A stretch of 64,000 nucleotides of DNA, taken from Caldilineaceae bacterium. GTDB taxonomy: Bacteria; Chloroflexota; Anaerolineae; Caldilineales; Caldilineaceae. The first letter of the stretch is position 1; each line of letters opens with the position of its first letter. Below are positions 9,263 to 64,000 of this stretch, piece after piece. The notes below the pieces were generated by a model, which had not been told where the DNA came from, ran no database searches, and was given only the letters and a program-made list of their open reading frames with translations. The DNA lies in assembly GCA_022821545.1 (NCBI GenBank), contig JAJEDJ010000043.1, forward strand, positions 1 to 64,000, in the 5' to 3' direction. The position numbers and the translations under genes are program-made.

Positions 9263-11347
9263 ATGAAACAGACCAGGTTTTCGTGGCTGTTGGGAATCGT
9301 GATGGTTGTAGCCCTTGTGCTCTCGGCCTGTGGTGCCCCAGCCGCGCAAGAAGCCCCGGCAGAGGAGGCCGCCGCCCCCGCTGCCGCCGAGGAAGAGGCC
9401 GCCGGGCCGGCCGAACTGCCCCAAATCGTCCCGATCGAAGGGCCGGAAGTGATCCTCGACCCGGCCATGTTCCCCACCGAGTTCAGTGAAGCGCCGATGC
9501 TGGCCGAGATGGTGGCCGCTGGCGACCTGCCGCCGGTAGCGGAGCGGCTGCCCGATCCCGAAGACATCTACGTCATCAAGCCGCTGAATGAGATCGGCAA
9601 GTACGGCGGCACGTGGCGGCGCGGCTTCACCGGACCCGCCGATGGCGAGAATCTGATGCGCATCAACTCCTCGTCCCGTCTGCTCACCTGGGACTACTCG
9701 GCCTCCAGGATCATCCCCAGCCTGATCAAACACTGGGAGATCAACGAGGACCACACCACCTACACGCTCCATCTGCGCCGCGGCGCCAAGTGGTCTGACG
9801 GCCACCCCTTCACCGCCGATGACATCCTCTTCTGGTACGAGGATGTCGCGCTGAACGAGGAGATCTGGCCCACCCCGCCCACTGAGATGGTAATCGGCGG
9901 CGAAGTCGGCCTGCTGGAAAAGATCGACGACTTCACGGTGCGCTGGACATTCTCCTCCCCTTATCCGCTGTTCCTGGACATCCTCGCCGGTGACAACGTT
10001 GTCGGCGTCGGCCCGGACACGCAGGGCGGATCAAACGGCGGCGGTTACATGGCCAAGCATTACATGAGCCAGTTCCTGCCCGCGTACTCCTCCGAAGCCG
10101 AAGTGACGGCCATGGCCGAGGCCGAAGGTTTCGACAGCTGGCTGGAGATGTTCACCTACAAGGGCTACCTGCCGCAAAACCCCGACCTGCCGACGATGGG
10201 GCCGTGGAAGACGGTTACGCCGGTCAATGAAGCAATCTGGTCCGAGGTCCGCAACCCCTACTACTGGGCCGTCGACACAGAGGGCAACCAGCTCCCCTAC
10301 ATCGACGAGATCGTGGTTACGCTGGCGCAGGATCGCGAGGTGCTGGTGCTGCGAGCCATCGCCGGCGAGTATGACCACCAGGCCCGCCACATCTCAATTT
10401 CAGCGCTTCCGGTCTTCTTGGAAAACATGGAGGAGGGCAACTACCGGATCGACATGGGCCGGGCCTTTTACCACAACAACGTTGTGAGCTTCAATCACAG
10501 CTACGACGGCGACGCTGAAATCCAGAAGTGGATCCAGAACCGCGATTTCCGCCGCGCGCTATCGATGGGCATCCGGCGCGATCAGATAAACGAGGCCATC
10601 TTCCTCGGTCTGGGCGTGCCTGGCTCGGCCATGATTGCCGCCAGCCTGCCTTCGACGCCGGGTGAGGAGTACGTGACCAAGTGGGCCACCTATGACCCTG
10701 ACCAGGCCAACGCGCTGCTGGATTCGATCGGGCTTGACGCCAAGGACGACGATGGCTGGCGTCTGCGCACCGACGGCTCCGGTGAGCGCCTGCGCATCGA
10801 ACTTGCCGCTGCCGCCGCCATCGGGTGGGACTGGGACGGCATGTTCGAAATGATCAAGGACCACTGGACTGCCATTGGCATCTGGGCCGACCTCAAGATC
10901 CAGGAACGCAGCCTCTTCGAAACCGAATCACGCGCCAACAATCATCAACTCGCAGTCTGGTCGAACGGCGGCTCTTCGGCTCTCTGGCTCTATCCGCGTC
11001 ACGTTCTGCCGGTAAATCTTGTCGAAGCCTACATGGGCCCCGACATCGCTCGCTGGTACAACAGTAACGGCGAGGAAGGCATGGCGCCGCCCTATCCCGA
11101 AATGGAGCGAGCGCTCGATCTGTTCCGCCAGGGCTACAGCGTTGGCAGCGAAGAACGCAACAAACTCGCCCAGGAGATCTGGTCGCTCGTCGTCGATGAG
11201 GTCTGGCAGATCGGCACAGTCGGCCAGGGCGCCGGCATCGCCATCACCAGCAACAACATGGGCAATGTCCCGCGCAGGCAGTGCCCGGCGCAGCACTGCC
11301 GCACGCCCGCAACCAGCCATCCACCCACCTACTACTTTATCGAGTAG
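9263..11347 (+). CDS. Family-5 (Opp/Dpp-type) solute-binding lipoprotein
   Basis: 694 residues. The signal peptide ends in the lipobox LSAC with Cys23, so the mature protein is a lipid-anchored extracytoplasmic receptor. An Ala/Glu/Pro-rich linker of about 40 residues follows. The family-5 fold is recognised from YTLHLRRGAKWSDGHPFTAD, typical of oligopeptide/nickel/opine-binding proteins. The start at ATG 9263 has GGAGGG at 9251-9256; an upstream in-frame ATG at 9107 lies inside the propeller gene and is rejected. The C-terminal RTPATSHPPTYYF matches the usual end of this family, so the gene looks intact. The ligand is unknown, and the flanking oxidoreductases make a sugar-acid or glycoside ligand as likely as a peptide. 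Confidence 0.9.
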   Translation: MKQTRFSWLLGIVMVVALVLSACGAPAAQEAPAEEAAAPAAAEEEAAGPAELPQIVPIEGPEVILDPAMFPTEFSEAPMLAEMVAAGDLPPVAERLPDPEDIYVIKPLNEIGKYGGTWRRGFTGPADGENLMRINSSSRLLTWDYSASRIIPSLIKHWEINEDHTTYTLHLRRGAKWSDGHPFTADDILFWYEDVALNEEIWPTPPTEMVIGGEVGLLEKIDDFTVRWTFSSPYPLFLDILAGDNVVGVGPDTQGGSNGGGYMAKHYMSQFLPAYSSEAEVTAMAEAEGFDSWLEMFTYKGYLPQNPDLPTMGPWKTVTPVNEAIWSEVRNPYYWAVDTEGNQLPYIDEIVVTLAQDREVLVLRAIAGEYDHQARHISISALPVFLENMEEGNYRIDMGRAFYHNNVVSFNHSYDGDAEIQKWIQNRDFRRALSMGIRRDQINEAIFLGLGVPGSAMIAASLPSTPGEEYVTKWATYDPDQANALLDSIGLDAKDDDGWRLRTDGSGERLRIELAAAAAIGWDWDGMFEMIKDHWTAIGIWADLKIQERSLFETESRANNHQLAVWSNGGSSALWLYPRHVLPVNLVEAYMGPDIARWYNSNGEEGMAPPYPEMERALDLFRQGYSVGSEERNKLAQEIWSLVVDEVWQIGTVGQGAGIAITSNNMGNVPRRQCPAQHCRTPATSHPPTYYFIE

Positions 11348-11395: not shown

Positions 11396-11432
11396 GGCCT
11401 GTGGTCAGGGGTCGCCCCCCTGGCCGCAGGCC
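11396..11432 (+). promoter_or_regulatory. Intercistronic hairpin between binding protein and permease
   Basis: Arms 11396-11411 and 11417-11432 pair over 16 bp (two of them G-U wobbles) around a 5-nt loop. No T-run follows, so it is more likely an mRNA 3'-end stabiliser or partial terminator than a full terminator. Comparable hairpins follow the other three binding-protein genes in this window. Confidence 0.65.
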
Positions 11433-11452: not shown

Positions 11453-12445
11453 ATGCTCGCCTATGCAGCCCGCCGACTCGTCCTCGCCATCTTCACCCTG
11501 TGGACGGTCACGGTGCTCTCGTTTGTCATCATCCAGTTGCCGCCCGGCGACTTTGTCGACGCCTACATGGCCCAGCTGTCTGCCACGCAGTCCAACGTCT
11601 CAGAGCAGCACTTCGAATCCCTGCGCCGCCAGTACGCGCTCGACAGACCGATGCACGAGCAGTACCTCAAGTGGATGAGCGGGGTCTTCAGGGGCGACTT
11701 CGGTACCTCGATGATGTGGCGCAAGTCAGTGCTCGACGTGATCGGCGACCGCCTCGCCATGACCATGGTCCTCTCACTGGGCGCGATTGTTTTGACCTGG
11801 GCCATCGCCCTGCCGATTGGCATCTACTCGGCCGTGCGCCAGTACTCGATCGGCGATTACGTCTTCACCTTCATTGGGTTCATCGGACTGGGGGTGCCCA
11901 GCTTCCTCCTCGCCCTTACACTGATGTATTTCGGTTTCACCCTCTTCGACTCGGACATCGGCGGGCTCTTCTCCCCCGAATACCAGTTGGAGCCGTGGAG
12001 TTGGGGCAAAGTGAAGGACCTGCTCTATCATCTTCCCCTTCCCGCCATCATCATCGGCCTGAGCGGGACCGCTGAACTGATCCGCGTTATGCGCGCCAAC
12101 TTGCTGGATGAACTGCGCAAACCCTACGTCATCACTGCCCGCGCCGCGGGCATGTCGGAGCGCAGCCTCGTACTCAAATACCCGGTGCGCGTGGCCCTCA
12201 ACCCGTTCGCCAGCACCGTCGGCTATCTCCTGCCCTATATCCTGTCGGGCAGCGTTATCGTCTCCGTCGTCCTGAGCCTGCCCACGCTTGGTCCGCTGCT
12301 CCTGGGCTCCCTCATCGCCCAGGACATGTTCCTGGCAGGGACAATCGTCATGATGCTCGGCGCCCTGACCGTCATCGGCACATTTTTGTCTGACCTGCTG
12401 CTGATGTGGATCGACCCGCGCATCCGTTTTGGCATGGTTCAGTAA
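11453..12445 (+). CDS. Opp/Dpp-type ABC permease, DppB-like
   Basis: 330 residues. The first membrane segment ends in the QLPPGDF motif typical of DppB/OppB permeases. Further hydrophobic segments follow, with the cytoplasmic loop VITARAAGMSERSLVLKYPV corresponding to the EAA motif that contacts the ATPases. A GGAG sequence lies about 7 nt before ATG. The gene forms the inner-membrane channel with the DppC-like protein encoded next. Confidence 0.92.
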   Translation: MLAYAARRLVLAIFTLWTVTVLSFVIIQLPPGDFVDAYMAQLSATQSNVSEQHFESLRRQYALDRPMHEQYLKWMSGVFRGDFGTSMMWRKSVLDVIGDRLAMTMVLSLGAIVLTWAIALPIGIYSAVRQYSIGDYVFTFIGFIGLGVPSFLLALTLMYFGFTLFDSDIGGLFSPEYQLEPWSWGKVKDLLYHLPLPAIIIGLSGTAELIRVMRANLLDELRKPYVITARAAGMSERSLVLKYPVRVALNPFASTVGYLLPYILSGSVIVSVVLSLPTLGPLLLGSLIAQDMFLAGTIVMMLGALTVIGTFLSDLLLMWIDPRIRFGMVQ

Positions 12446-16973: not shown

Positions 16974-17879
16974 TCATCGTTGGCGCAGAGTCGGGTCAAG
17001 CAGATCCCGGAGGCCATCGCCGAGCAGGTTGAAACCGAGCACTGAAATGGCAATAGCGATGCCGGGAAATACCGACATCTCCGGATGTGTGTTCAGATAC
17101 TTGCGTCCCCCGGCCAGTATCGCGCCCCACGAAGGGGCGGGAGGCTGCGCGCCGAACCCGAGGAAAGTCAGTGCCGCCTCGCTCAGAATCGTCCATGCCA
17201 ACCCTATCGTTATCTGGACAATCACCGGGGCGCTTGCGTTCGGCAGCAGATGGCGCATCATGACCCGCCAACTTGGCGCGCCGATAGCCCGCGCGCTTTC
17301 TATGTAAGGCAGTTGCGAGACAGCGATCACCGCGCCGCGCGTGACGCGGCAAAGAATAGGGACATAGATGACGGCAAGTGCGATGATCAGATTCTGCGTG
17401 GAGGGTCCAAGCAGCACAGAGATCGTCAGGGCCAGAAGAATGCCTGGAATCGCGAACATCAGATCGATGAATGCCATGATGCCGGTCTCCACCGGCCCGC
17501 GCAAGTACCCGGACGCCAGCCCGAGCAGAAGCCCGATTAGGCCGGACAGAGCCATCGACAGGAGCGCTACCAGCAGGCTGAACCGTCCCCCATATATGAT
17601 GCGGCTGTAGAGATCACGACCCAGATAGTCTGTGCCGAGGAAATGATCGGCACTTGGGTCGGCAAGCATCTGACTGAAATCTGCCTCAAAAGGGTCTTGG
17701 GTTGCGAAGACAGGGGCGAAGACTGACGTGATGATCAGAATCAAGGTGATGACAAAGCCCGCCGTAAACAAGCGATGGCGAACTGCTCGTTGAACGAAGC
17801 TGCGCAGCGCGTTTCTCGCCGCGAGCGACCGCTCCACTCCGGAATCATTCGTAGCGAATTCGTGGGTCGAGCTGGCCAT
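16974..17879 (-). CDS. Opp/Dpp-type ABC permease, DppC-like (second system)
   Basis: 301 residues. The motif LGTDYLGRDLYSRIIYG after the first membrane helix, five further hydrophobic segments and the EAA-like loop RAIGAPSWRVMMRHLLPN identify a DppC-type permease. The start is placed at ATG 17879; a TTG five codons upstream is the alternative. The 5' end overlaps the end of the DppB-like gene by 35 bp, implying translational coupling. No ATPase gene follows; the next gene is an epimerase. Confidence 0.9.
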   Translation of the reverse strand: MASSTHEFATNDSGVERSLAARNALRSFVQRAVRHRLFTAGFVITLILIITSVFAPVFATQDPFEADFSQMLADPSADHFLGTDYLGRDLYSRIIYGGRFSLLVALLSMALSGLIGLLLGLASGYLRGPVETGIMAFIDLMFAIPGILLALTISVLLGPSTQNLIIALAVIYVPILCRVTRGAVIAVSQLPYIESARAIGAPSWRVMMRHLLPNASAPVIVQITIGLAWTILSEAALTFLGFGAQPPAPSWGAILAGGRKYLNTHPEMSVFPGIAIAISVLGFNLLGDGLRDLLDPTLRQR

Positions 17880-18792
17880 AGAGTATATCCACAACGAGAT
17901 TCACAAAGACGAAGGCTGTCGAATATAAGATCAGAACACCCTGCAGCACCGGCAGATCCCGATTGAGCAGCGCGCGTACGGTTAACTGACCGAGCCCTGG
18001 TACGAAGAACATCTCTTCTATGAGTACCGTTCCCCCGAGCAGATAGCCCAGTTCCAGTCCGATAACAGTCACGATTGGAATTGCGGCATTCTTCAGTCCG
18101 TGCCGCCAGAGCACCTGCTGCGGATGAAGCCCCTTGGCGTGCGCAACTCTCATGTAATCCCGGTTGAGGACCTCAAGAACGGCTGATCGCACGACGCGCG
18201 TCATGACCGCTGCCAGAGGGAGCGCGAGGCTCAGGGACGGCATGATCATGTGCTGCAGATTCGTCCCCAAACCGTCGCTGATCGGCTTGTAGCCGGACGG
18301 CGGCAACCACTGCAGCCGCGCCGCCACGACCAGAATCAGAATAGTCGCGATCCAGAAGTTCGGGATCGAGATACCGAGCTGGCCGAATTGCATGGCCAGC
18401 AGGTCAACCCACGAACCGTTCCTGGCTGCCGCGACGATACCCAGCGGAATGGCTATGGAGAGTCCCAGAAGGATGGTCAGAGTTGCCAGTTCAACGGTTA
18501 CCGGAATTCGAGATTTGACCAGGTCCCACACTGGGTAGCCGCCCAACAGGGATTTGCCCATGTCTCCCCTAAGGAGATCCCTCAGCCAGTCGAAATATTG
18601 CACGTGAAGCGGCCGGTCAAGCCCAAGGAACTGGCGCATTTTGTCGGCCGCTTCCGACCCTGCGCCGACGGTATCGAGGAGGACGAGCACAACGTCTCCA
18701 GGAAGCGCGTGCATCAGCAGAAAGACCAGGGTCGCAACCGCCCACACTGTAAGTACAGCGCGAATCAGACGGCGACCTAGAAACTGCGACAT
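17845..18792 (-). CDS. Opp/Dpp-type ABC permease, DppB-like (second system)
   Basis: 315 residues with the characteristic MHALPGD motif after the first membrane segment and the cytoplasmic coupling loop YMRVAHAKGLHPQQVLWRHG. AGGAGG lies about 9 nt before the ATG. The gene is 153 bp downstream of the binding-protein gene, across a hairpin, and overlaps the DppC-like gene downstream. Confidence 0.92.
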   Translation of the reverse strand: MSQFLGRRLIRAVLTVWAVATLVFLLMHALPGDVVLVLLDTVGAGSEAADKMRQFLGLDRPLHVQYFDWLRDLLRGDMGKSLLGGYPVWDLVKSRIPVTVELATLTILLGLSIAIPLGIVAAARNGSWVDLLAMQFGQLGISIPNFWIATILILVVAARLQWLPPSGYKPISDGLGTNLQHMIMPSLSLALPLAAVMTRVVRSAVLEVLNRDYMRVAHAKGLHPQQVLWRHGLKNAAIPIVTVIGLELGYLLGGTVLIEEMFFVPGLGQLTVRALLNRDLPVLQGVLILYSTAFVFVNLVVDILYGQLDPRIRYE

Positions 18793-18888: not shown

Positions 18889-18925
18889 GAGGACGCATTC
18901 CCACTTTTCTTGGAAATGCGTCCTC
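18889..18925 (-). promoter_or_regulatory. Intercistronic hairpin between binding protein and permease (second system)
   Basis: GAGGACGCATT (18889-18899) and AATGCGTCCTC (18915-18925) form a perfect 11-bp stem with a 15-nt loop that can extend further with one mismatch. It begins 21 bp after the binding-protein stop and has no T-run on the minus strand, as at the equivalent place in the other importers here. Confidence 0.65.
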
Positions 18926-18945: not shown

Positions 18946-20550
18946 TTACCTGTCCAGCCATACATATTTCAGAAAGCGCACCGTGCCCAGGCCATCAACT
19001 TGGTAGTCCATGACATCCGGGTGCATTCCCATGCGATCGTCATAGGTAAAGAGGTAGATGAGAGGCCATCCCGCCTCATACCCAATGGTCAGTGCCTCTG
19101 TATAGAGTTCTCGGCGCCGGTCGGGGTCGGTTACCTTACGCGCCTCTTCGACCAGCACGTTGTACTCGGGAATGTTGAAATTAGGAGCAAAGCCGTGCGA
19201 CACGCCTTCCGGATGCATGATCCCGTAGAAGATATCGTCCGGACTCGAAGCGTAAAGGCCCTGCAAAGCTGCGGTAAACTCACCCTTGTAGACCTTTTCC
19301 ACCCACACAGCGTGGTCGGTGGCTAGCAGATTGAACTTTATCCCCAACTCGGCAGCGCTGATCTGGAGAATTTCGGCGATTTGTCCTTCATCCGAGGCTG
19401 CCCCGTAGAAGTTCAGATCTACCTCAAATCCGTCGGGATAGTTGGACTGGGCCAAATACTCCTTGGCCTTTTCGATGTCTGGCTCTTTGAAGTACTCGAT
19501 GCCGGTATAGTACTGGCTGTTCGGAGGCTGGGGGTCGCCCGCGAAGAAGCGATTGCAGCGGCCTGCGGTATAGACATCGCACATGACCTGCTTGTCAACC
19601 AGGTGCTGTAACGCTTTCAACACATTGGGATCGTTGAAGGGTTCCCTTCCTACATTGAAGGTGAACATGAAGAAAATGCCGGTGTCGCCGGTAAACAGCT
19701 TGTATTCCTGCTGGGTCAGAGATTCCCAGGAGGCGCCGGGCACCATCATGATGAAATCGACCGCATCAGAGGAAAGATTGGCCGCGCGTGCCGCGTCGTC
19801 GAGCAGGTAGGACATGCTGACTCCATCCAGGTAGGGCACGCCCTCCTCCCAATAGTTCTCATTCCTGACGAGCTCGGTTTTGACACCGGGCTCGAACTCC
19901 TGTAACTTGAAAGGCCCCGTGCCTATGTACTCGAACGGCTCTTTCTCGAATGTTCCCGCTGGCATGACTAGAACGGCCGGCCGACCAAGCACGTCGAGGA
20001 ATGGACTGTAGGGTTCTTTAAGGGTTACCTTGATAGTGTAGTCGTCAACAGCTTCGACGCTTGCAACCGGCGACAGCCAGCCCGCATACGCGGAGATCGA
20101 TTCATCCATCGCGTGTTCAAAGGAGTAGACGACGTCTTCGGATGTCATCTCTTTGCCGTTGTGGAACAGGACTCCTTTGCGCAAATTGAAGACATATTCG
20201 GTGTCGCTGACAGCCTCCCAGGACTCGGCAAGGGAAGCGTTGTTGTTGTATCCCGAATCCCAGTACAGCAGTCCTTCATAGATCTGGTGGAGAATGTTCC
20301 ACTCGGTCGCCCCGTGCAGTCGTCCGCCCCAGGGGTTGATCACGGTAGACGCCTGTGCCTGGCCGAACTTGAGGACTCCCCCGTATTTTGGTCCTCCTTT
20401 ATCGGCCGGAGCGGCCGCTTCCGATTCATCGGCGGCGGCCTGTTCAGCGCCGCTGTCCGCTGGGGCCGCAGGGGCACATGCGGCCAGCATGGCAAGCACC
20501 ACGATGAGTCCCAAAACCGTGGCGATGGCAGAAAGACTTCGCCTTCTCAT
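18946..20550 (-). CDS. Family-5 solute-binding lipoprotein (second system)
   Basis: 534 residues. The signal peptide ends in the lipobox LAAC with Cys25, followed by an Ala/Asp/Glu linker and the family-5 core (YVFNLRKGVLFHNGKEMTSED). AGGAGG precedes the ATG. It is closer to the classical dipeptide/nickel-binding size than the 694-residue protein at 9.3 kb and is not a recent copy of it. The ligand is unknown. It is the first gene of a minus-strand transcript: receptor, two permeases, epimerase. Confidence 0.92.
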   Translation of the reverse strand: MRRRSLSAIATVLGLIVVLAMLAACAPAAPADSGAEQAAADESEAAAPADKGGPKYGGVLKFGQAQASTVINPWGGRLHGATEWNILHQIYEGLLYWDSGYNNNASLAESWEAVSDTEYVFNLRKGVLFHNGKEMTSEDVVYSFEHAMDESISAYAGWLSPVASVEAVDDYTIKVTLKEPYSPFLDVLGRPAVLVMPAGTFEKEPFEYIGTGPFKLQEFEPGVKTELVRNENYWEEGVPYLDGVSMSYLLDDAARAANLSSDAVDFIMMVPGASWESLTQQEYKLFTGDTGIFFMFTFNVGREPFNDPNVLKALQHLVDKQVMCDVYTAGRCNRFFAGDPQPPNSQYYTGIEYFKEPDIEKAKEYLAQSNYPDGFEVDLNFYGAASDEGQIAEILQISAAELGIKFNLLATDHAVWVEKVYKGEFTAALQGLYASSPDDIFYGIMHPEGVSHGFAPNFNIPEYNVLVEEARKVTDPDRRRELYTEALTIGYEAGWPLIYLFTYDDRMGMHPDVMDYQVDGLGTVRFLKYVWLDR

Positions 20551-29011: not shown

Positions 29012-29051
29012 AAAAGGGCGAAAGCGCATAGACAGACGCTTTCGCCCTTTT
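29012..29051 (-). terminator. Rho-independent terminator, usable in both directions
   Basis: A perfect 15-bp stem (29012-29026 with 29037-29051; core GGGCGAAAGCG) with a 10-nt loop, flanked by A-runs and T-runs on either side. It starts about 30 bp after the stop of the lipoprotein gene and separates it from the catabolic run. Confidence 0.88.
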
Positions 29052-29081: not shown

Positions 29082-31562
29082 CTACTCCTGATTCAACTCC
29101 GCGGTTACGTCCAAATGGGCTCCCACGATCAGGGGAAGGAACTCCTCTGCGAACAGGGTCGAAATGTTCGGATCCGCCAGGATTTTGGCGACATCTTGCG
29201 GAAGGAACGGCCCCGCCAAGTCCAGCGTACGCAGGATCGAAGGCGAATCATAGTGAATGGTGAGGAGGACTTCCTCGTCGGCGACCACATTCAACTGGTT
29301 AGCCGAGGAGGTCAACTCCAACTCCGAGACCTGGAGGCCATCGTAAAGGATCGAGGCGATGTTTGGAGGCAGCGAGGGCAAGCTTACACCGTTCTCCTGG
29401 AAGACGCTGGCAGGAACGCCGCCGACCGACCGAATCTCTGAACCGTCCAGCATGAGCCTGAGCGCAAGGACGGGCCGGTACTCGGCATCGATATCGGGCA
29501 GTTCCATGCGGACGGCGGTTACGTCGAATGCGGGCGGCACGTCAATTTCGGCAGCCCCATCTGCTGCGGGAATCGAGAGGGCGACGCCGATATCCGTTTT
29601 CTGAAGGAATCCAATTCCTACGTCGAGCACGCCGGGGGGGACGGGAAGTAGCTCACCCACGACGCGCTGGACTGTCGCCATTGACTGATCCGTCCACGAA
29701 ATGACGGGCAGATGGCCGCCGTTCGAGGCCAGATAGAGGCTGGCGTCGATGATGTTCAGGTCCAGCCTTTGGATGCCCAGGGCCTGCATATCGGTAATGA
29801 AGCGCGGCTGCAGGATGGACTGATCTCCCAAAGGGATACCCATCAAGGCGAGCGAGCCGTCCGCCTTGACTTCGACGGGAAGTGAGTCCAGTTTGGTTTC
29901 AGGAGCTTCCTGACCCGCCAGGGCCAGCTGCACATCCAAGCCCGAAGAAAGGACCGGAGGCAGGTGAGGCAGATACTCGTCTATCGTACCAATGAATGCG
30001 ATCCTGTCCGACAGTGAGGATACCACGACCAGGAGACGGTTGAGAGCCGCTTCATCGTACTGCAATGTCAGCAGGCTGCCGGCATCCCCCACCAGGTCAA
30101 TGCCGCCGGCGGAAGTCGTCAACTGAAGCGAGTCCGATCCTACGCCGCCGACGATATTCATTACCAGCGGCGGCAGGCTGACAGGCGGGACCAGGGCGGC
30201 GAGGTCCGCGAGTGAAAGCCCCAGCGCTGACTGAACAAAGCCATCCCTGTCGATGGCCGCGCCGATCTGCAACGCCGGTTCCATCCCTTCGGGCGCCGCC
30301 GCGAAGTTGGGGGCCGAAACGTCGAAATCAGGGCTGAATGCCGCGGCGTCGGCTCCCGGCAGATCCAGAGAGAGGCCGACATTCGTTTTTGCGAGCAGAC
30401 TGCGCAGAACCGTGAGGCCGGCGTCCACCATGCCGGGCGACACGCCCATAAGGTCAACGGCAATATCACCGATTGTGTCCAGCGACGTATCGGTCCACAG
30501 AATTGAAGGCAGAGGCTCCTGATTGAGCGCCAGGTACAGACCTTCGGCCTGAATGCTCAGATCCAGTCTTTGCGCATTGGTAGCGCTAAGAATGTCAAGC
30601 AGATTGGAGGGCAGAAGGGAGCCCGTTCCCAGTGGAATGCCCCACGCGCCCAACGAGCCGTCGCCGCCGACAGTGACCGGAATCGTAGGCAGCTGCGTAT
30701 CAGCGGTCGGTACACCGGTGAAGGAGACGATTACGTCCAGGTCTGCACCGGGCAGCCTGGGAATGACTTCGCCGATCATGCCTCCCATGGACGGGTCGAC
30801 GAAGGCGCTGACGATCGGCATGAGGTTATTCAGGCGCTTGGTATCGTAAGCGAGACCGGGCAGGGCCGTACTGTCCAGCGCGAGATCGATGCCGTTGGGC
30901 TGCGTGGCGAGAGAGAACTGCTGGACGCCCAGCGCGTTCAAGATCTGGAGAGCCAGCGGCGGAAGTTCTACGCCAAGCGATGCCCCCAAAGCCTGCTCGA
31001 TTTCCGCCAAGGGGATACCTTCGAAGGAGGCCTGGCCGTTTGCGTCGAAGGCCAGACTGGCAAACTGAAGGGGCCCAATCGTCGTTTCGGCTGCGCTTTC
31101 TGCGGAAACCAGCTCTTCGCCCTGCCAGCGGGGAATGTCCTGGCCGGCGGTGGGCAGTATTATAATTGCGCCCAAGCCAACCCGCCGCAACCAGGTGAGA
31201 GCGTCAGCGCCCTGCGCGGCCCCGGGAACATTGGCCAGAACGCGACCCACAAGTTCGGCTGATTCATCACTCCATTTGAGGTAGGGTAGAGGCTCTCCGT
31301 TTGCGTGGAGAAAGACACCGTGGTAGCCGATGCGGACCTCCAGAACGTCGACACCTGCAGCGGCGAACTGATCCAACATCGGTTGCTGAAGAATCGGGGC
31401 TGCAGGGAAGCCAAGCACAGTGCCAAAGCCGTTGCCGTCAACTCTGATAGGAACGGACGGGAGGTTCAGCCAGGTAGAGCCGCCGTCACCGCCGCCATTG
31501 CAGGCGCCAAGTGCCAGAATAAAGACCAGGATAATGATAAATTTGCGGAGTAAGGCCGGCAC
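29082..31562 (-). CDS. Large lipoprotein built from three two-part repeat modules, family unknown
   Basis: 826 residues. The signal peptide ends in the lipobox LGAC with Cys21, so it is a surface lipoprotein. The mature part is three modules of roughly 265 residues. Each has an A half (LPSVPIRVDGNG / LPTIPVTVGGDG / LDSLPVEVKADG, then a PLPYLKWSDES / PLPSILWTDTS / HLPVISWTDQS segment) and a B half (ELPPLALQILNALG / SLPPLVMNIVGG / SLPPNIASILYDG, then LAYDTKRLNNL / LQYDEAALNRL / IHYDSPSILRTL). The third module ends the protein. No enzyme motif is visible. Alternating beta-strand and short-helix patterning suggests a binding or scaffold role. It begins at GTG with AAGGAGG 6 nt upstream and has its own promoter and terminator. 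Confidence 0.85.
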   Translation of the reverse strand: MPALLRKFIIILVFILALGACNGGGDGGSTWLNLPSVPIRVDGNGFGTVLGFPAAPILQQPMLDQFAAAGVDVLEVRIGYHGVFLHANGEPLPYLKWSDESAELVGRVLANVPGAAQGADALTWLRRVGLGAIIILPTAGQDIPRWQGEELVSAESAAETTIGPLQFASLAFDANGQASFEGIPLAEIEQALGASLGVELPPLALQILNALGVQQFSLATQPNGIDLALDSTALPGLAYDTKRLNNLMPIVSAFVDPSMGGMIGEVIPRLPGADLDVIVSFTGVPTADTQLPTIPVTVGGDGSLGAWGIPLGTGSLLPSNLLDILSATNAQRLDLSIQAEGLYLALNQEPLPSILWTDTSLDTIGDIAVDLMGVSPGMVDAGLTVLRSLLAKTNVGLSLDLPGADAAAFSPDFDVSAPNFAAAPEGMEPALQIGAAIDRDGFVQSALGLSLADLAALVPPVSLPPLVMNIVGGVGSDSLQLTTSAGGIDLVGDAGSLLTLQYDEAALNRLLVVVSSLSDRIAFIGTIDEYLPHLPPVLSSGLDVQLALAGQEAPETKLDSLPVEVKADGSLALMGIPLGDQSILQPRFITDMQALGIQRLDLNIIDASLYLASNGGHLPVISWTDQSMATVQRVVGELLPVPPGVLDVGIGFLQKTDIGVALSIPAADGAAEIDVPPAFDVTAVRMELPDIDAEYRPVLALRLMLDGSEIRSVGGVPASVFQENGVSLPSLPPNIASILYDGLQVSELELTSSANQLNVVADEEVLLTIHYDSPSILRTLDLAGPFLPQDVAKILADPNISTLFAEEFLPLIVGAHLDVTAELNQE

Positions 31563-41909: not shown

Positions 41910-43832
41910 ATGGAAGAGATCGCAGGATCGTTTACGCCCCTCCTAATCGTCATCTCCCTGGCATTCATCGTGCCGCTGCTGCTCACGCGCTTCGAGCGGC
42001 TGCGGCTGCCGATCGTGGTCGGCGAAATCCTGGCGGGAATCGTGGTAGGCAGCAGCGGTTTCGGCTGGGTGACCCACGAAGACCAGCTGCTCACGCTCCT
42101 GGCCGAGTTCGGCTTTGTCTTTCTGATGTTCCTGGCCGGCATGGAGATCGACTTCGCCAATCTGAACGTTGAGCTGCCCGGCGTCGCCCGCGCCGGCGGC
42201 GCAGGCACAGGCCTCACGCCGGCGGAGGGCCGCGACCGCCGCAGCTTCGGCCCGCTTTCCATCGGCCTGATGGGCTTCATTCTGACCCTGACACTTTCCG
42301 CCGTGGTCGGCTTTGCGCTGTTGCAGGTGGGCCTGGTCAGCAGTCCCTGGATGATGGCGCTGATCATGTCGACAACGTCGCTGGGCGTCGTCATGCCTGT
42401 GCTCAAGGAGCAGGAGCTCATCCGCGGGCGCTTCGGGCAGACCATCCTGATCGCGGCCCTCGTCGCCGACTTCGCCACTATGCTCCTGATCACCGTGGTC
42501 ATCGCCACGATTTCGCACGGACTGACCCTCGACATTCTTCTGATCAGCCTGCTCTTCGTCGTCTTCTTCCTTCTCTACCGGCTGGGAATCGTTTCTCTGA
42601 ACCGGTTCGAGTCGTTGCGCCGCACGCTGGAGGACCTCAGCCACACGACCGCCCGCATCAAGATCCGGGGCGCATTTACGATCATGCTGCTGTTTGTTGT
42701 GCTGGCCGAAGCGCTGGGCGCGGAGATCATTCTGGGCGCATTCATCGCCGGGGCGATGCTGTCTCTGCTCTCCACCCGTGAAGACCTGGAGGCGATGCAC
42801 CAGTTGGAGGCGGTCGGCTTCGGCTTCTTCATCCCTATCTTTTTCATCATGGTAGGTGTGGACTTCAATCTGGGCGCCCTGACCGGATCCAGCGATGCAT
42901 TGATTCTGCTGCCGTTCCTGGTACTGGCCGCCTTTCTGGTCAAACTTCTGCCGGCTCTCCTGTTCCGCGTGCTATTCAGCTGGCGCGAAACCTTTTCAGC
43001 CGGCTTTCTTCTGTCGTCGCGCCTTTCCCTGATCGTGGCGGCCTCGGCCATCGGCCTGAACCTGGGGATCATAAGCGAATCGGTAAACACGATGATCATC
43101 CTGGTTGCCATCGTTACCGTCACGGCCGCCCCCTTGATCTTCAACCGCATCGTACCGCGCACCATGGCGGCTACGCTGCGGCCTATCGTTGTGTTTGGCG
43201 CCGAAAGGCTGGGACTCCAGGTCGCTGAACAGCTGACGGGCCACCACGAGCAGGTCGTTCTGGTCGACACAGATGAAAGTCTGATTGCCAGGGCCCGGCA
43301 ACAGACCTCCGAAGGCATAGAGGTCCTGCACGCCAGTATCGACGATGAAGAGGAGGAACTTGCCGGGCGCCTCGATCTCGCAGAAACGGTGGTCGTCACT
43401 CTCAGCGACACAGACCGCAACCGGCACGTTTGCCACGTGGCGCGCACGCGCTACGGCATCGACCACATTGTGACCCTTGTACGGGAAACGAACCGGCTTG
43501 TGGAGTTCGAAACACTTAACGTGACTGTTTTCAACCCTTCGCTGGACCAGGCCGCACTCCTCAGCCTGCTGGCGCGCAATCCGGACATCTACGAACTGCT
43601 GACTCGTACCGACGACAATAAGGAAGTGTCGGAAGTCTGGGTACACAATCACGATTACGGCGACAAGGCGCTGCGCGAGCTGCAGCTTCCGGGCGACGTA
43701 CTCATCCTCTCGATCCGACGCGCCGGGGAGTTCATCGTGCCGCGCGGAAATACGCAGCTGGAATACGGAGACCACCTGACGCTGGTCGGAACATTCGACC
43801 ATCTGCATGAGGCGCGGGCGCTCTTTGGTTGA
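41910..43832 (+). CDS. Kef/CPA2-type cation:proton antiporter with TrkA-N and TrkA-C domains
   Basis: 640 residues. About 12 hydrophobic segments fill residues 1-400, with the CPA2 features RLPIVVGEILAGIVVG and EIILGAFIAGAMLS. A TrkA-N nucleotide-binding domain follows (PIVVFGAERLGLQVAEQL, in which the usual GxGxxG loop is altered to GAERLG, then VVLVDTDE). A TrkA-C domain ends the protein (LPGDVLILSIRRAGEFIVPRG). This is the KefB/KefC architecture of K+ efflux or Na+/H+ exchange in the inner membrane. The altered loop makes NAD(H) gating uncertain. Confidence 0.9.
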   Translation: MEEIAGSFTPLLIVISLAFIVPLLLTRFERLRLPIVVGEILAGIVVGSSGFGWVTHEDQLLTLLAEFGFVFLMFLAGMEIDFANLNVELPGVARAGGAGTGLTPAEGRDRRSFGPLSIGLMGFILTLTLSAVVGFALLQVGLVSSPWMMALIMSTTSLGVVMPVLKEQELIRGRFGQTILIAALVADFATMLLITVVIATISHGLTLDILLISLLFVVFFLLYRLGIVSLNRFESLRRTLEDLSHTTARIKIRGAFTIMLLFVVLAEALGAEIILGAFIAGAMLSLLSTREDLEAMHQLEAVGFGFFIPIFFIMVGVDFNLGALTGSSDALILLPFLVLAAFLVKLLPALLFRVLFSWRETFSAGFLLSSRLSLIVAASAIGLNLGIISESVNTMIILVAIVTVTAAPLIFNRIVPRTMAATLRPIVVFGAERLGLQVAEQLTGHHEQVVLVDTDESLIARARQQTSEGIEVLHASIDDEEEELAGRLDLAETVVVTLSDTDRNRHVCHVARTRYGIDHIVTLVRETNRLVEFETLNVTVFNPSLDQAALLSLLARNPDIYELLTRTDDNKEVSEVWVHNHDYGDKALRELQLPGDVLILSIRRAGEFIVPRGNTQLEYGDHLTLVGTFDHLHEARALFG

Positions 43833-44005
43833 GCCCAAAACGCGGGCAGGAAGAAACAGTTGCCTCAGCCGCGTTGCTTGCAGCACGTTGCGCGTCGCGT
43901 GAAGGCAGGCCGGAGAGCCGTTGCGCCAAATTGTGAAGCGCGTGCGAAGTGTCGTGGTTTCAAACTGAATTTACGTTAGCTGCCGGGTTGGCATCGGAGT
44001 TTGTT

Positions 44006-44515
44006 TCAAGGGGGAGCGGCGCGTTCCCCCCGGCTGATCTGCTGCCAGCGGGCGTGGGCGTTGCGAATGACTCGCAGCGTCTCCTCTTCCATCGGCAGGC
44101 CGTCCAGATTCGCGACCGACACCCAGGCGACGTCATCAACGTCGTCGGCCGCCGCGACTTCGCCGCCGCGGTAATGGGCCCAGAAGTCGATCACGACATA
44201 GTGATAGCGAATGCGTCCGTTCGCGTCGCGATGAATGGGCTCGAACAGGTCGACCAGATCAACGATTTCGATCTCAGCGCCAGTCTCCTCCAGCACCTCA
44301 CGAGCAACGCCGGCCCGCACGGGCTCGCCCAGATCCAGCAGGCCGCCGGGCAATGCCCACATTCCCTGCGAGGGCGGGCGTCCCCGTTCAACCATAAGGA
44401 TACGTCCATCGCCGTCGACCACGACAGCAGCCACGGCCACCAGCGGCGCCGGCGGATACTCGCGGCTGATAGTAACGGGAAAGGTCTCGTGCGGCGGGCC
44501 TTCGGTGCTGCGCAT
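44006..44515 (-). CDS. NUDIX hydrolase
   Basis: 169 residues. The Nudix box is complete: GGLLDLGEP, then REVLEETGAEI in GX5EX7REVxEExGU spacing. The enzyme hydrolyses a nucleoside-diphosphate-linked compound with Mg2+. ATG 44515 lies 2 nt after the stop of the HAD gene; a longer in-frame extension within that gene is not used. The HAD and NUDIX products may cooperate in nucleotide or metabolite clean-up. Substrate not assignable. Confidence 0.86.
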   Translation of the reverse strand: MRSTEGPPHETFPVTISREYPPAPLVAVAAVVVDGDGRILMVERGRPPSQGMWALPGGLLDLGEPVRAGVAREVLEETGAEIEIVDLVDLFEPIHRDANGRIRYHYVVIDFWAHYRGGEVAAADDVDDVAWVSVANLDGLPMEEETLRVIRNAHARWQQISRGERAAPP

Positions 44516-49166: not shown

Positions 49167-50054
49167 ATGCCATACTCATTCCAGATCGGTTCCATACCCT
49201 GCCACATCGTCAGCGACGGCCGCCAGCTGGTGGACGGCGGCGGCTTCTTTGGTCTCGTGCCACGTGTTCTGTGGGAGCGCGTCATCCGCCCCGACGACAA
49301 GAACCGCATCCCTGTGCAGATGCGGTCGCTGCTCATCCAATCATCGGCCGGCCTGATCCTGGTCGACACCGGCCAGGGCGACAAGATCAGCGCCAAGGAG
49401 AGGCGCATCTTCGGCATGGACGACGGCAACCGGAGACTCGCCGCAGACCTGCACAGCGCCGGCTTCAGCCCGGAGGATGTCGATATCGTGCTGATGACGC
49501 ACCTGCACGCGGACCATGCCGGCGGTTGCACCCACTGGAGCGATCCCGCCGATCCCGAGAGCGAGGCCGTCCCCTCCTTCCCCAACGCCCGCTATCTCAT
49601 CCAGCGGCTTGAGATGGCGGAAGCGGCCTTCCCCAACGAACGCACGCGCGGCACCTACTTCCCCGACAACTGGGAGCCCCTGCGCCGCACGGGCCAGCTG
49701 GAGCTCGTTGACGGCGATCAGGCCCTGGCGAGGGGCGTCCGTACGGCAACAGTGCCAGGGCATACGGCGAGCATCCAAGTCGTATGGGTAGAGGACGGCG
49801 GCGAATCGCTCCTCTTCCTGGGGGACGCTTGCAGCTGGGCGGCGCACCTGGACCGGCTGGCGTGGGTGCCTTCCTTCGATCTCGACCCGATGCGGAGCAT
49901 CGAGGGCAAGCGCAATCTACGCAGAGAGGCTGAGGAGAAGGAGGCGTTGCTCGTGTTCCAGCACGACGGGCAGGTTGTGACCGGACGGTTGCGGGCGGGC
50001 GCGCGCGGGCCTGTGGTTGAGCCTGTGATTACGGAGGAGGCTTGGCCGGAGTGA
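49167..50054 (+). CDS. Metallo-beta-lactamase-fold hydrolase (copy 1)
   Basis: 295 residues. The metal site THLHADHAGG is complete, as are LVDTGQGD upstream, PGHTASIQVV and FLGDACSWAAH. It resembles lactonase/hydrolase members that open small lactones or esters rather than true beta-lactamases; no signal peptide is present. No SD is visible before ATG 49167, and the gene begins only about 120 bp after the transposase remnant, so its original promoter may have been replaced. A close paralogue follows. Confidence 0.87.
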   Translation: MPYSFQIGSIPCHIVSDGRQLVDGGGFFGLVPRVLWERVIRPDDKNRIPVQMRSLLIQSSAGLILVDTGQGDKISAKERRIFGMDDGNRRLAADLHSAGFSPEDVDIVLMTHLHADHAGGCTHWSDPADPESEAVPSFPNARYLIQRLEMAEAAFPNERTRGTYFPDNWEPLRRTGQLELVDGDQALARGVRTATVPGHTASIQVVWVEDGGESLLFLGDACSWAAHLDRLAWVPSFDLDPMRSIEGKRNLRREAEEKEALLVFQHDGQVVTGRLRAGARGPVVEPVITEEAWPE

Positions 50055-53435: not shown

Positions 53436-54776
53436 ATGCACAAGACAAGTCGTCGCCAATTTCTCAAGGTGAGCGCCGGCATGGGCGCACTCACCATGTT
53501 GGCCGCCTGTGCCCCCGTTGCAACAGATATGGATGCAGGCATGGCCGACGCAATGGAAGAACCGATCGATCTCGTCGTCTGGTATCAGGATTGGGACGGC
53601 GCCAACCGCATCATGGGATGGGTCCAGCCCGAGTTTGAGAAGGAACATGAGAATGTCAACGTCGATCTCCAGGCCATCGGCTACGGCGACCTGCTCAACA
53701 AGATGCTGCCTTCAATCGCCTCCGGCACCGAAGGCGACGTCATGATGATGTACACCGACTGGGTGGTCGCCACCGACATCACGCGTGTCTTCCTCGACAT
53801 CACCGACGCCGCCGGCGGCGCTGCCGATCTGGAAGAAAAGATGTGGCCGGCCGCCTTCCAGGCCGTCGAAGTGCCGGGCAACAAGGTCTACTATCTGCCG
53901 TGGCTGGCCGGCATCCGCGGCGCAGCCATGACCGTCAACATGGACCACTGCGCCGAAGCGGGCGTCGATTACCTCAACTTCGGGACGTACGAAGAGGTGG
54001 TCGATGCCGGCATTGCCATGACGCAGACGAACGAAGAGGGCAAAGTCACCCGCTCAGGTTACTCGATCGCCAGCTCCCAATATCAGTTGTTGTGGACCCT
54101 GATCTGGCAGCTGGGCGGGGACTTCTTCGACAAGGAGACCGGCGTCTGGTCCCACGACAGCGATGTGGGCGCAGCCGCCGCCCAGATCCTGCACGACATC
54201 TACCATGTCCACCAGACCGTCGACTTTGAGCTGTTTACGAGCGAATACGAGGCCTGTACGCAGCAGCTCGTCTCGATCTGGGGAAACGGCGCCTGGACCA
54301 TGAGCGTCATGACCGACGTGGCCGACGTGCCGGCCGACAACATCGTCACGCCGCCGCTCGCAAACGCGGTCGAGTATATACTCTACCCGCAGCATGTGGC
54401 AGGTTATGGGCTTTCCAAGCGGCTGGCGGAGGACTCCGCCAAGCTGGATGCCGCCATTGACTTTGCCCTGCTGATCGTCAGCAACGGCGCGCTGCTGCAG
54501 GCGCTTGACTTCTACTCCGGCGTTGTCCCCTCCAAGGGCGTTTACAACGACCCCGGCATCGGCGACGTAAAGTACGGCCTGGTCTCGAAGCGCGTGGCCG
54601 AGGGCATGTGGCCCCACGCCCGCTATCCCCAGGACCACGTGGCCCAGCAAGGACCGGCCTCGGCCGAGTTCGACCGCGCCATGCGGCAGGAAATCAGCAT
54701 CCAGGAGGCGCTGTCCAACATGGACGCCTACCTGCAGGAACAGGAAGATCAGGCCAGAGAACGTCTGGCAGCCTGA
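53436..54776 (+). CDS. Family-1 (sugar-type) solute-binding lipoprotein, Tat-exported
   Basis: 446 residues. The N-terminus combines a twin-arginine motif (SRRQFLK) with the lipobox LAAC at Cys25, so the protein is probably exported folded and lipid-anchored. The mature part shows the family-1 pattern, e.g. VWYQDWDGANRI and TDWVVATDITRVFLDI. AGGAGG precedes the ATG. It is the receptor for the two permeases downstream and is clearly paralogous to the protein at 62.5 kb (shared IGYGDLL and TDWVVATD segments). The ligand is probably a carbohydrate or polyol, but this is inferred from the family only. Confidence 0.91.
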   Translation: MHKTSRRQFLKVSAGMGALTMLAACAPVATDMDAGMADAMEEPIDLVVWYQDWDGANRIMGWVQPEFEKEHENVNVDLQAIGYGDLLNKMLPSIASGTEGDVMMMYTDWVVATDITRVFLDITDAAGGAADLEEKMWPAAFQAVEVPGNKVYYLPWLAGIRGAAMTVNMDHCAEAGVDYLNFGTYEEVVDAGIAMTQTNEEGKVTRSGYSIASSQYQLLWTLIWQLGGDFFDKETGVWSHDSDVGAAAAQILHDIYHVHQTVDFELFTSEYEACTQQLVSIWGNGAWTMSVMTDVADVPADNIVTPPLANAVEYILYPQHVAGYGLSKRLAEDSAKLDAAIDFALLIVSNGALLQALDFYSGVVPSKGVYNDPGIGDVKYGLVSKRVAEGMWPHARYPQDHVAQQGPASAEFDRAMRQEISIQEALSNMDAYLQEQEDQARERLAA

Positions 54777-54798: not shown

Positions 54799-54828
54799 GG
54801 GCGCCGCGTACCCGGGTACGCGGCGCCC
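54799..54828 (+). promoter_or_regulatory. Perfect 30-bp palindrome between binding protein and permease
   Basis: GGGCGCCGCGTACCC and its exact reverse complement lie back to back. In RNA this gives a very stable stem with a minimal loop of four to six bases. It begins 22 bp after the binding-protein stop, 22 bp before the permease start, and has no T-run. Confidence 0.7.
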
Positions 54829-54850: not shown

Positions 54851-55798
54851 ATGACTACGTTGCAGGATCACCCCGTCTCCGGTGGTCAGACGTTGCCCCA
54901 ACTTCCCAGCGCACGCCGTGACAGCGTCTGGCGGCGCTTCCGCCGCGCCAGCCCATTCGCGCTCATCTATTCCGGCGCCATCCTGATCTTCTATACCATA
55001 ATCTTCATCATCCCGTTCGGCACCGGCATCTGGCTCGCGTTCCAGAACTGGGACTTCATCACCAATCCCAAGTTTGTCGGCCTGCGCAACTTCACCAAGG
55101 CCTTTACCGACCAGTACTTCTGGCAAGCCCTGGAAAAGACGCTCCTCTTCTCGGTGGTCGAAATCAGCCTCGGCCTCACGATCGCGCTGCTCTTCGCCCT
55201 TGCCCTGAGCCAGATCCTGGGCAAATGGCAGAACATCTATCTCTCGCTCTACTACCTGCCTGTGATCACGCCCTTGGTGGTCTCCCTCTACCTCTGGCGC
55301 TGGCTCTACCGTCCCACCGGCGGCGCCTTCAACACGCTGCTCAGCAGCGTCGGCCTGCCCGAGCAGCCCTTCCTGGCCAGCCCGCAGCAGGCCCTCTGGG
55401 CGATCACCGTCGTTATCATCTGGGCCCACCTGGGCACGGGCATCGTCCTCTTTCTCGCCGGCATTAACGACGTGCCGGAAAGCCTGTTCGAAGCGGCCCG
55501 CCTCGACGGCGCTGGCTTCTGGCAGTCCTTTTTCCGCATCACACTGCCGCTGATTCGACCGGTACTGGTCTACCAGATGGTCGTCAGCGTGATCGGGACA
55601 GTGCAGATGTTCGAGGCTTTCTTTCTGATCCCGGGCCCGGGATTCAGCACACGCACGCTGGCCCTCTACACGTACGAGTTGGGTTTCCGCGCGCTCAATC
55701 TCGGGTACGGGGCCGCGGTTTCGCTGATCATTTTTATGATGCTGCTGGGCGCGACCGTCTTCCAACTCCGCCGCTGGCGGATTGAGTGGGAGCATTGA
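54851..55798 (+). CDS. Sugar ABC permease, MalF-like
   Basis: 315 residues with six membrane segments. The coupling loop EAARLDGAGFWQSFFRITLPLIRP is the EAA motif of carbohydrate permeases. The N-terminus (residues 1-30) is cytoplasmic and basic. It pairs with the MalG-like protein encoded 6 bp downstream to form the channel. Confidence 0.92.
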   Translation: MTTLQDHPVSGGQTLPQLPSARRDSVWRRFRRASPFALIYSGAILIFYTIIFIIPFGTGIWLAFQNWDFITNPKFVGLRNFTKAFTDQYFWQALEKTLLFSVVEISLGLTIALLFALALSQILGKWQNIYLSLYYLPVITPLVVSLYLWRWLYRPTGGAFNTLLSSVGLPEQPFLASPQQALWAITVVIIWAHLGTGIVLFLAGINDVPESLFEAARLDGAGFWQSFFRITLPLIRPVLVYQMVVSVIGTVQMFEAFFLIPGPGFSTRTLALYTYELGFRALNLGYGAAVSLIIFMMLLGATVFQLRRWRIEWEH

Positions 55799-62521: not shown

Positions 62522-63892
62522 ATGATACAGCGCAACACCCAGCGCCACAATCTGAGTCGACGAAGTTTCCTGCAGCTTTCGTCAGCGGCAACCGCGGGCG
62601 CCGTGCTGGCTGCCTGCGCACCGGTCGGCAGCGACATGGCCGGCGGCGACATGGCCGACGACATGCCCGATCAGCTGGAAGCCGAAATCACCGTCTGGCA
62701 CCAGGACTGGGACGGCATGAACCGCATCCTGGCCTGGGCCACCGAGGCCTTCGCCGAGGTCGAACCCGGCGTAACCGTGAACACACAGCCAATTGGCTAC
62801 GGCGACCTGCTCGCCAAACTCCTCCCCTCCATCGCAGCCGGCAATGAGGGCGACATCAACTACCACTACACCGACTGGGTCGTCGCCACCGACGTATCCC
62901 AAGTCTTCCTCGAAATCACCGACCTGGCCGGCGGCCGCAACGCTCTCGAAGAACGGTTCTTCCCCGCCGCCTTCACCGCCGTCAACGCGCCCGAAGGCAA
63001 GGCCTACTACTATCCCTACATCTCCGGCCTCTCCGACTGCGTCCTCGTCCTCAACACCGACCACTTCTCGGAGGCCGGCGGCGACTGGACCCAGTGGAGC
63101 GACCTCGGCGCCGTCATCGACGACTGCCTCAAGGTCCGGCAGATCGACGACGACGGCAACATGACCCACGCCGCCTGGACGCTGACGGGGATGTTGGGCC
63201 TCTTCCCCCAGACCCTTATGTACCAGCTCGGGGGCGCGCCCTACGACGTGGAGACCGCCACCTTCACCTACAACAGCGAAGCAGGCATCGCCGCCCTTCA
63301 GTTCATGCACGACATCATCTACGAACACCGCCTTTTCGACTGGGACTTCATCGACAACGTGTGGCAGGACATGGCCAACGGCATCCTCTCCATGGAAGGC
63401 ATGGGCTCCTGGACCTATAGCGTCCTTGCCAACCAGTTCCCGCTCAATCTCGAAGCAGTGCCGATGCCCAGCCACCCGGACGCCGTCGAACGCATCCTCT
63501 GTCCCAGCCACATCGGCTCCTGGGCCCTCTCGCGGCGCCTCCGCGACGACTCCGACATGCTGAACGCCTCCATCGCGTTCATCGACATGATCATGAGCAC
63601 GGAAGGGCAGCTGCAGGCGATGGAGTTCTACTCCGGCAGTCTGATGAGTCCGGCCGTCTACGCCGACCCGCGAATCGAAGACACCAAGTACGGCGCCGTC
63701 TCCAAGAAATGCGCTCTCGGCGTCTGGCCCCACGCCCGCTACGCCGGTCACCACGTGGCCAACCCGGCCCCCGCCTGGCGCGAAGCCGAGAGAGCCCTCA
63801 CCGGCGAGATCTCCATCCAGGAGGCCGCTGAAAACATCGACGCCGAAATGCAGGGCCTCGAAGACACGGCCCTCGAACGGCTCAATGCCTGA
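62522..63892 (+). CDS. Family-1 solute-binding lipoprotein, Tat-exported (second importer)
   Basis: 456 residues. It has the Tat motif SRRSFLQ and the lipobox LAAC at Cys32, with AAAGGA 7 nt before ATG. The core matches the protein at 53.4 kb along its whole length, including VWHQDWDGMNRIL, IGYGDLLAKLLPSIAAG and YTDWVVATDVSQVFLEI. The two importers are therefore paralogous but not recent copies. The first codons of the next gene follow at 63980. Confidence 0.9.
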   Translation: MIQRNTQRHNLSRRSFLQLSSAATAGAVLAACAPVGSDMAGGDMADDMPDQLEAEITVWHQDWDGMNRILAWATEAFAEVEPGVTVNTQPIGYGDLLAKLLPSIAAGNEGDINYHYTDWVVATDVSQVFLEITDLAGGRNALEERFFPAAFTAVNAPEGKAYYYPYISGLSDCVLVLNTDHFSEAGGDWTQWSDLGAVIDDCLKVRQIDDDGNMTHAAWTLTGMLGLFPQTLMYQLGGAPYDVETATFTYNSEAGIAALQFMHDIIYEHRLFDWDFIDNVWQDMANGILSMEGMGSWTYSVLANQFPLNLEAVPMPSHPDAVERILCPSHIGSWALSRRLRDDSDMLNASIAFIDMIMSTEGQLQAMEFYSGSLMSPAVYADPRIEDTKYGAVSKKCALGVWPHARYAGHHVANPAPAWREAERALTGEISIQEAAENIDAEMQGLEDTALERLNA

Positions 63893-63903
63893 TCTTGCGC
63901 GGC

Positions 63904-63936
63904 GGGCGGGGACGGTCCTACCGGGCCGTCCCGCCC
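63904..63936 (+). promoter_or_regulatory. Intercistronic hairpin after the second family-1 binding protein
   Basis: Arms 63904-63918 and 63923-63936 (GGGCGGGG.ACGG... with ...CCGTCCCGCCC) form a stem of about 14 bp with one bulged G, one wobble and a 4-nt loop. No T-run follows. This is the same arrangement as after the other three binding-protein genes. Confidence 0.65.
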
Positions 63937-63979
63937 AGCCGCCCGACCCGTTGCCAAAACTCTGAAGGGGAAGGCAGCC

Positions 63980-64000
63980 ATGGCAGTCACAGCAGGGTCA
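63980..64000 (+). CDS. Start of the next gene, probably a sugar permease (partial)
   Basis: ATG 63980 follows GGGGAAGG by about 6 nt, and seven codons (MAVTAGS) are visible before the window ends. The position after a family-1 binding protein and its hairpin predicts a MalF-like permease, as in the first importer. The sequence itself is too short to show this. Confidence 0.5.

Follow-up and report, generated by a model that had tools for sequence, protein, structure and literature searches.

Strong hairpins follow most solute-binding protein genes in the genome of a Caldilineaceae bacterium

Our analysis of the genome of a Caldilineaceae bacterium revealed that about four-fifths of the genes encoding solute-binding proteins (SBPs), the nutrient-catching part of ABC importers, have a strong hairpin directly behind them. 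This arrangement is real and genome-wide, and both the structures and their association with SBP genes are observed directly.

Four SBP genes and their hairpins in the window

The window, i.e., the whole stretch of 64,000 nt that was analyzed, harbors exactly four SBP genes according to Pfam, two of the SBP_bac_5 family and two of SBP_bac_1/8, and genome-wide family searches placed no further members of these families inside it. The first gene (SBP_bac_5, 9263 to 11347, plus strand; Pfam 2.2e-57 and gene call), whose open frame may begin at 9107, is followed 48 nt past its stop by hairpin 1 (11396 to 11432, plus strand), a 16-bp stem that includes G-U pairs and carries the loop TCGCC. The best 44-nt window of this hairpin folds at -35.8 kcal/mol versus -16.9 in shuffles, and the next gene encodes a BPD_transp_1 permease (Pfam; 11453 to 12445, plus strand). 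On the minus strand, the second SBP_bac_5 gene (18946 to 20550; Pfam 7.2e-80) is followed after 20 nt by hairpin 2 (18889 to 18925), a 15-bp stem with a 7-nt loop (-25.6 kcal/mol versus -14.4 in shuffles), and then by a BPD_transp_1 permease gene (Pfam; 17845 to 18792). The third SBP gene (SBP_bac_1/8, 53436 to 54776, plus strand; Pfam) encodes a protein with a TAT signal and has orthologues in genomes of the same genus. Hairpin 3 (54799 to 54828, plus strand) lies 22 nt past its stop and constitutes a perfect 30-bp palindrome at the DNA level, which in RNA corresponds to a 13-bp stem and a CCGG loop; a BPD_transp_1 permease gene follows (Pfam; 54851 to 55798, plus strand). Finally, the SBP_bac_8/1 gene at 62522 to 63892 (plus strand; Pfam) precedes hairpin 4 (63899 to 63942, plus strand; 18 pairs). 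While the BPD_transp_1 permeases of the other three SBPs lie within the window, the permease gene behind the fourth one is located at the window edge and probably starts at the ATG at 63980, although our caller placed its start at 64067.

Tested against dinucleotide shuffles, the four whole gaps yielded folding z scores of -4.35, -3.27, -4.47, and -3.80, in agreement with the earlier note on this DNA, which claimed a strong hairpin after each of the four SBP genes. The positions that it gave were accurate for the first three hairpins; the fourth is larger than claimed, and 63904 to 63936 represents its inner part. None of the four window hairpins carries a T-run. A few ordinary gaps of the window also contain a strong hairpin, but these are exceptions. 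One of them follows the gene at 29082 to 31562 (minus strand), which encodes a large predicted lipoprotein and not an SBP. This 16-bp hairpin (29012 to 29051, minus strand; AAAAGGGCGAAAGCG...CGCTTTCGCCCTTTT) equals the SBP hairpins in strength and resembles a two-way terminator, with an A-tract on one side and a T-tract on the other.

Genome-wide association with SBP genes

The assembly comprises 4.87 Mb in 58 contigs, in which we located 57 places matching PF00496 (SBP_bac_5) and 83 matching PF01547/PF13416. With about 140 SBP genes in these two families, the genome is very rich in transporters. For comparison of the gaps, we sampled 1.26 Mb, consisting of the stretches around all of these SBPs and ten 20-kb control stretches, and obtained 1067 genes with our own codon-usage caller, the starts of which are approximate given the simplicity of the caller; SBPs and permeases were then marked among them. 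Gaps of at least 30 nt were considered, and a structure was regarded as strong if its best 44-nt window reached -20 kcal/mol or lower. Stems were counted from 11 net bp upward, with loops of up to 10 nt only, and long-loop structures are therefore missed by this metric.

Strong structures were found in 105 of the 128 SBP gaps and in 61 of the 481 other same-strand gaps (odds ratio, 31; Fisher P = 7e-51); since SBPs are paralogues, the loci are not fully independent, but their hairpins are. About 18% of SBP gaps thus lack a strong structure. Stems of at least 11 bp occurred in 79/128 SBP gaps (62%) versus 34/481 other same-strand gaps (7%; Fisher P = 4e-38). Stems of this length were present in 61 of the 96 gaps between an SBP and a permease gene but in none of 60 permease-permease gaps; genome-wide, 83 of the 96 SBP-permease gaps contained a structure at or below -20 kcal/mol. 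The claim of the earlier note that two transporter families share the arrangement was also borne out and extends to some SBPs of other families, as 8 of 13 places matching PF13407 or PF13458 (one PF13407 match being weak) had a strong structure, mostly with stems of at least 11 bp.

As the window has a GC content of about 61% and gaps rich in GC fold fairly well in any case, strong folding could in principle be a mere consequence of base composition, of gap length, or of intergenic DNA being rich in GC. However, controls matched for gap length and GC reached -15.0 kcal/mol compared with -25.3 kcal/mol in SBP gaps, and stems were present in 8% versus 61%. The GC content of the gaps was nearly equal (0.586 in SBP gaps and 0.568 in others), and the median z against a gap's own shuffles was -4.25 for SBP gaps and -0.07 for other gaps. 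An artifact of GC or gap length is ruled out by the matched controls, and we assign this explanation a negligible probability. Equally strong hairpins in ordinary gaps had been named in the earlier note as grounds for refuting its reading; SBP gaps lay far above both shuffles and other gaps, and this refutation failed.

Two loci deserve separate mention. At L138 (G000, contig C38, 50843 to 52066), a TGA codon interrupts an SBP_bac_1 gene, and a structure of -33.7 kcal/mol still follows its 3′ part. At L158 (G000, contig C47, approximately 43585 to 44100), an open reading frame of 118 amino acids (MHYRETILWQKAMDAARETYRL...) is situated between an SBP_bac_5 gene and its permease gene, with a hairpin on either side; the encoded protein presumably resembles the four-helix-bundle family of the 23S intervening-sequence type.

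Selection on RNA pairing

The stems start at a median of about 20 nt past the SBP stop, just beyond the footprint of a terminating ribosome. Their 5′ arm is rich in purines, and the tail is pyrimidine rich and devoid of T-runs. In our stem search, G-U pairs and A-C mismatches were given the same score; nevertheless, the SBP stems contained 73 G-U pairs versus 20 A-C mismatches, and 40 stems leaned toward G-U versus 9 toward A-C (P = 9e-6). Selection on a DNA palindrome would not predict such an excess, and it is therefore the transcribed strand that is selected as RNA.

The hairpins themselves are largely unrelated in sequence. Among 89 SBP hairpins, only 7 of approximately 3,900 pairs were similar at an E value of 1e-3 or lower, which, together with the lack of T-runs, agrees with what had been noted for the four window hairpins. 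A GAGGAGTGAG-like theme recurs in a minority of them. This theme and the perfect palindrome of hairpin 3 are what one would expect if the elements acted at the DNA level, as binding sites of a regulator, as cruciforms, or as mobile repeats of the REP/BIME type that had come to lie behind SBP genes, and REP elements indeed make up the malE-malF structure of E. coli. We nevertheless consider such a reading very improbable, given the scarcity of similar pairs, the strand dependence evident from the G-U excess and the purine-rich 5′ arm, and the absence of any match to Rfam elements in the window. REP-like repeats were ruled out, as no consensus exists across the hairpins.

Comparison of orthologous loci provided further evidence. 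The palindrome of hairpin 3 is kept in 14 of the 15 other same-genus orthologues found of the SBP encoded at 53436 to 54776. In the alignment of 15 rows, 99.5% of the cells are paired and three pairs are changed on both sides (C-G to U-A, A-U to G-C, and C-G to U-A); this covariation exceeds that of slid controls and of shuffles, of which 3 in 500 reach the same level. The sole exception, L194 (G020), is missing the gap. At this locus, a perfect 12-bp inverted repeat (CCGCCAGAGGCC-GCCAT-GGCCTCTGGCGG) is present approximately 90 nt past the SBP stop, within the aligned start of the permease gene. In two other genera, where the SBPs are 62 to 63% identical (L195 and L196), a structure of unrelated sequence occupies the site of hairpin 3 (a strong one in L195, one with a long loop in L196), which also speaks against a DNA-level element. 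Hairpin 4 is kept in ten orthologues, the alignment of which varies too little to prove covariation. For the orthologues of one further SBP (L218 to L233), the structures look weak in a 100-nt window, at least partly because in the genome studied here the hairpin of this SBP begins about 86 nt past the stop and is cut by that window. Collectively, the G-U excess, the covarying orthologous hairpins, and the unrelated hairpin sequences establish that the RNA structure is what selection keeps; selection on RNA pairing is thus a direct observation.

Probable mRNA protection, possible partial termination, and known systems

Tails with at least five T residues in 8 nt followed 11 of 89 SBP stems and, similarly, 8 of 90 other stems, and a stem with at least six T residues in 8 nt was found in none of 125 SBP gaps. 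Canonical terminators were ruled out, as T-runs at SBP stems do not exceed the level of other stems. Canonical intrinsic terminators, i.e., a stem plus a T-run, are nearly absent from this genome in general (2 of 102 convergent-facing gene ends), and between positions 50000 and 64000 they were not above shuffles. This lineage may end its transcripts with Rho, which is encoded in the genome, or without U-tracts.

The position of the SBP gene within the operon was informative. All nine SBPs that lie behind their permease and before an unrelated gene are followed by a structure at or below -20 kcal/mol, as opposed to 12 of 55 ordinary convergent gene ends, and only 4 of 13 standalone SBPs, with no permease neighbor on either side, had a strong structure. 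Independence from operon position is thus observed directly: the hairpin goes with the 3′ end of the SBP gene and must do more than act as a brake that lowers permease expression. The low frequency at convergent ends shows, in turn, that the hairpin is not the general terminator of the genome.

We consider it probable that the hairpins confer 3′ protection of the malE-malF type, blocking 3′ exonucleases and stabilizing the SBP mRNA such that SBP excess results. According to this model, a single mRNA would span the operon, and the SBP message would end in the hairpin, an RNA element lying between the cistrons. Upon cleavage, the permease portion would decay, 3′-to-5′ exonucleases such as PNPase would be halted by the hairpin, and the SBP segment would outlive the permease segment, resulting in an excess of SBP over permease. 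PNPase is encoded on contig C57 (E = 8e-283). Along with the stable hairpins of the SBP-permease gaps and the selection on RNA pairing, its presence supports the malE-malF analogy drawn in the earlier note.

The hairpins could instead act as partial internal terminators at which most polymerases stop after the SBP gene, the task of the U-tract being taken over by Rho or another factor. Partial termination has been published as the mechanism of SBP hairpins in cellulolytic Clostridia, where long stems of low U content still ended 20 to 96% of transcripts (PMC9045158). The missing U-tracts are no bar to it in a genome that encodes Rho and hardly uses U-tract terminators. However, removal of the U-tract from a Clostridial hairpin abolished termination entirely (PMC9045158), and convergent gene ends, where termination is needed, rarely carry such hairpins. 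We therefore regard termination as possible but rather unlikely and favor protection, although both could act together. With so many parallel loci, this genome is well suited to distinguishing protection of the mRNA from partial termination; a direct test case is offered by the SBPs located behind their permease.

The SBP hairpins are not confined to this lineage, although their density here is high. In breadth samples that were small and took the best-scoring SBPs, the other genera of the family had z below -3 at 11 of 14 single SBP loci, strong structures were present at 3 of 4 loci from the same class, and 9 of 25 loci from the rest of the phylum were strong, with z below -2 at 14. The SBP-DppB gaps of named genomes, mostly Pseudomonadota, were weaker against shuffles (z below -2 in 15 of 32), and the malE-malF, oppA-oppB, and dppA-dppB gaps of E. 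coli all scored as matches with the same metric. Thus, of the rule that the earlier note had proposed for this lineage, the genome-wide part stands, but its restriction to the lineage does not, since comparable structures are present in other parts of the phylum as well as in Pseudomonadota, E. coli, and Clostridia. The sampled SBP hairpins elsewhere in the phylum also lack U-tracts. It is a speculative and somewhat doubtful extension that phylum-wide U-less hairpins form a general 3′ cap that only binding-protein messages receive and that was repeatedly acquired wherever an SBP lies, amounting to an mRNA-stability code for one protein class. Our literature searches did not find such hairpins described for Chloroflexi.

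The principle, the arrangement, and both mechanisms have already been published for E. coli and Clostridia. The present analysis adds scale, statistics with matched controls, evidence from the RNA strand, covariation, independence from position, and the absence of U-tracts. The principle of SBP excess via an intergenic RNA hairpin would thereby extend to a lineage of uncultured type, in which a genome encodes about 140 SBPs and the hairpins arose repeatedly and independently, and the hairpin can serve as a cheap sequence mark of SBP-permease operons.

In E. coli, malE-malF carries a 3′ protective structure that leads to differential decay of the operon, and in malEFG and four other ABC operons the stabilized gene is always the SBP gene, with 3′ ends typically bounded by hairpins (PMC5927463). 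The arrangement described here is alike in that the SBP gene comes first, one or more strong hairpins lie right past its stop, the permease gene follows, and a U-tract is unnecessary. It differs in that related REP repeats form the E. coli structure, whereas unrelated single stems occur at most of the approximately 140 SBP loci here, and in that stabilization was measured in E. coli and is predicted here. REP/BIME elements are likewise intergenic palindromes, some of them after E. coli SBP genes, but the hairpins of this genome share no consensus. In cellulolytic Clostridia, SBP stem-loops act mainly as partial internal terminators and are present in 87.3% of 5′-SBP gaps over 50 bp, and the arrangement was suggested to be widespread (PMC9045158, Wu et al. 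2022). The genome-wide link to SBPs and the long, GC-rich stems of low U content are common to both systems. However, the Clostridial U-rich tracts are kept and needed for termination, while the T content of the tails here is about 31%, with few runs. Moreover, Clostridial SBPs at the 3′ end of a gene cluster seldom have a stem-loop (23.5%), in contrast to nine of nine SBPs behind their permease and before another gene in this bacterium.
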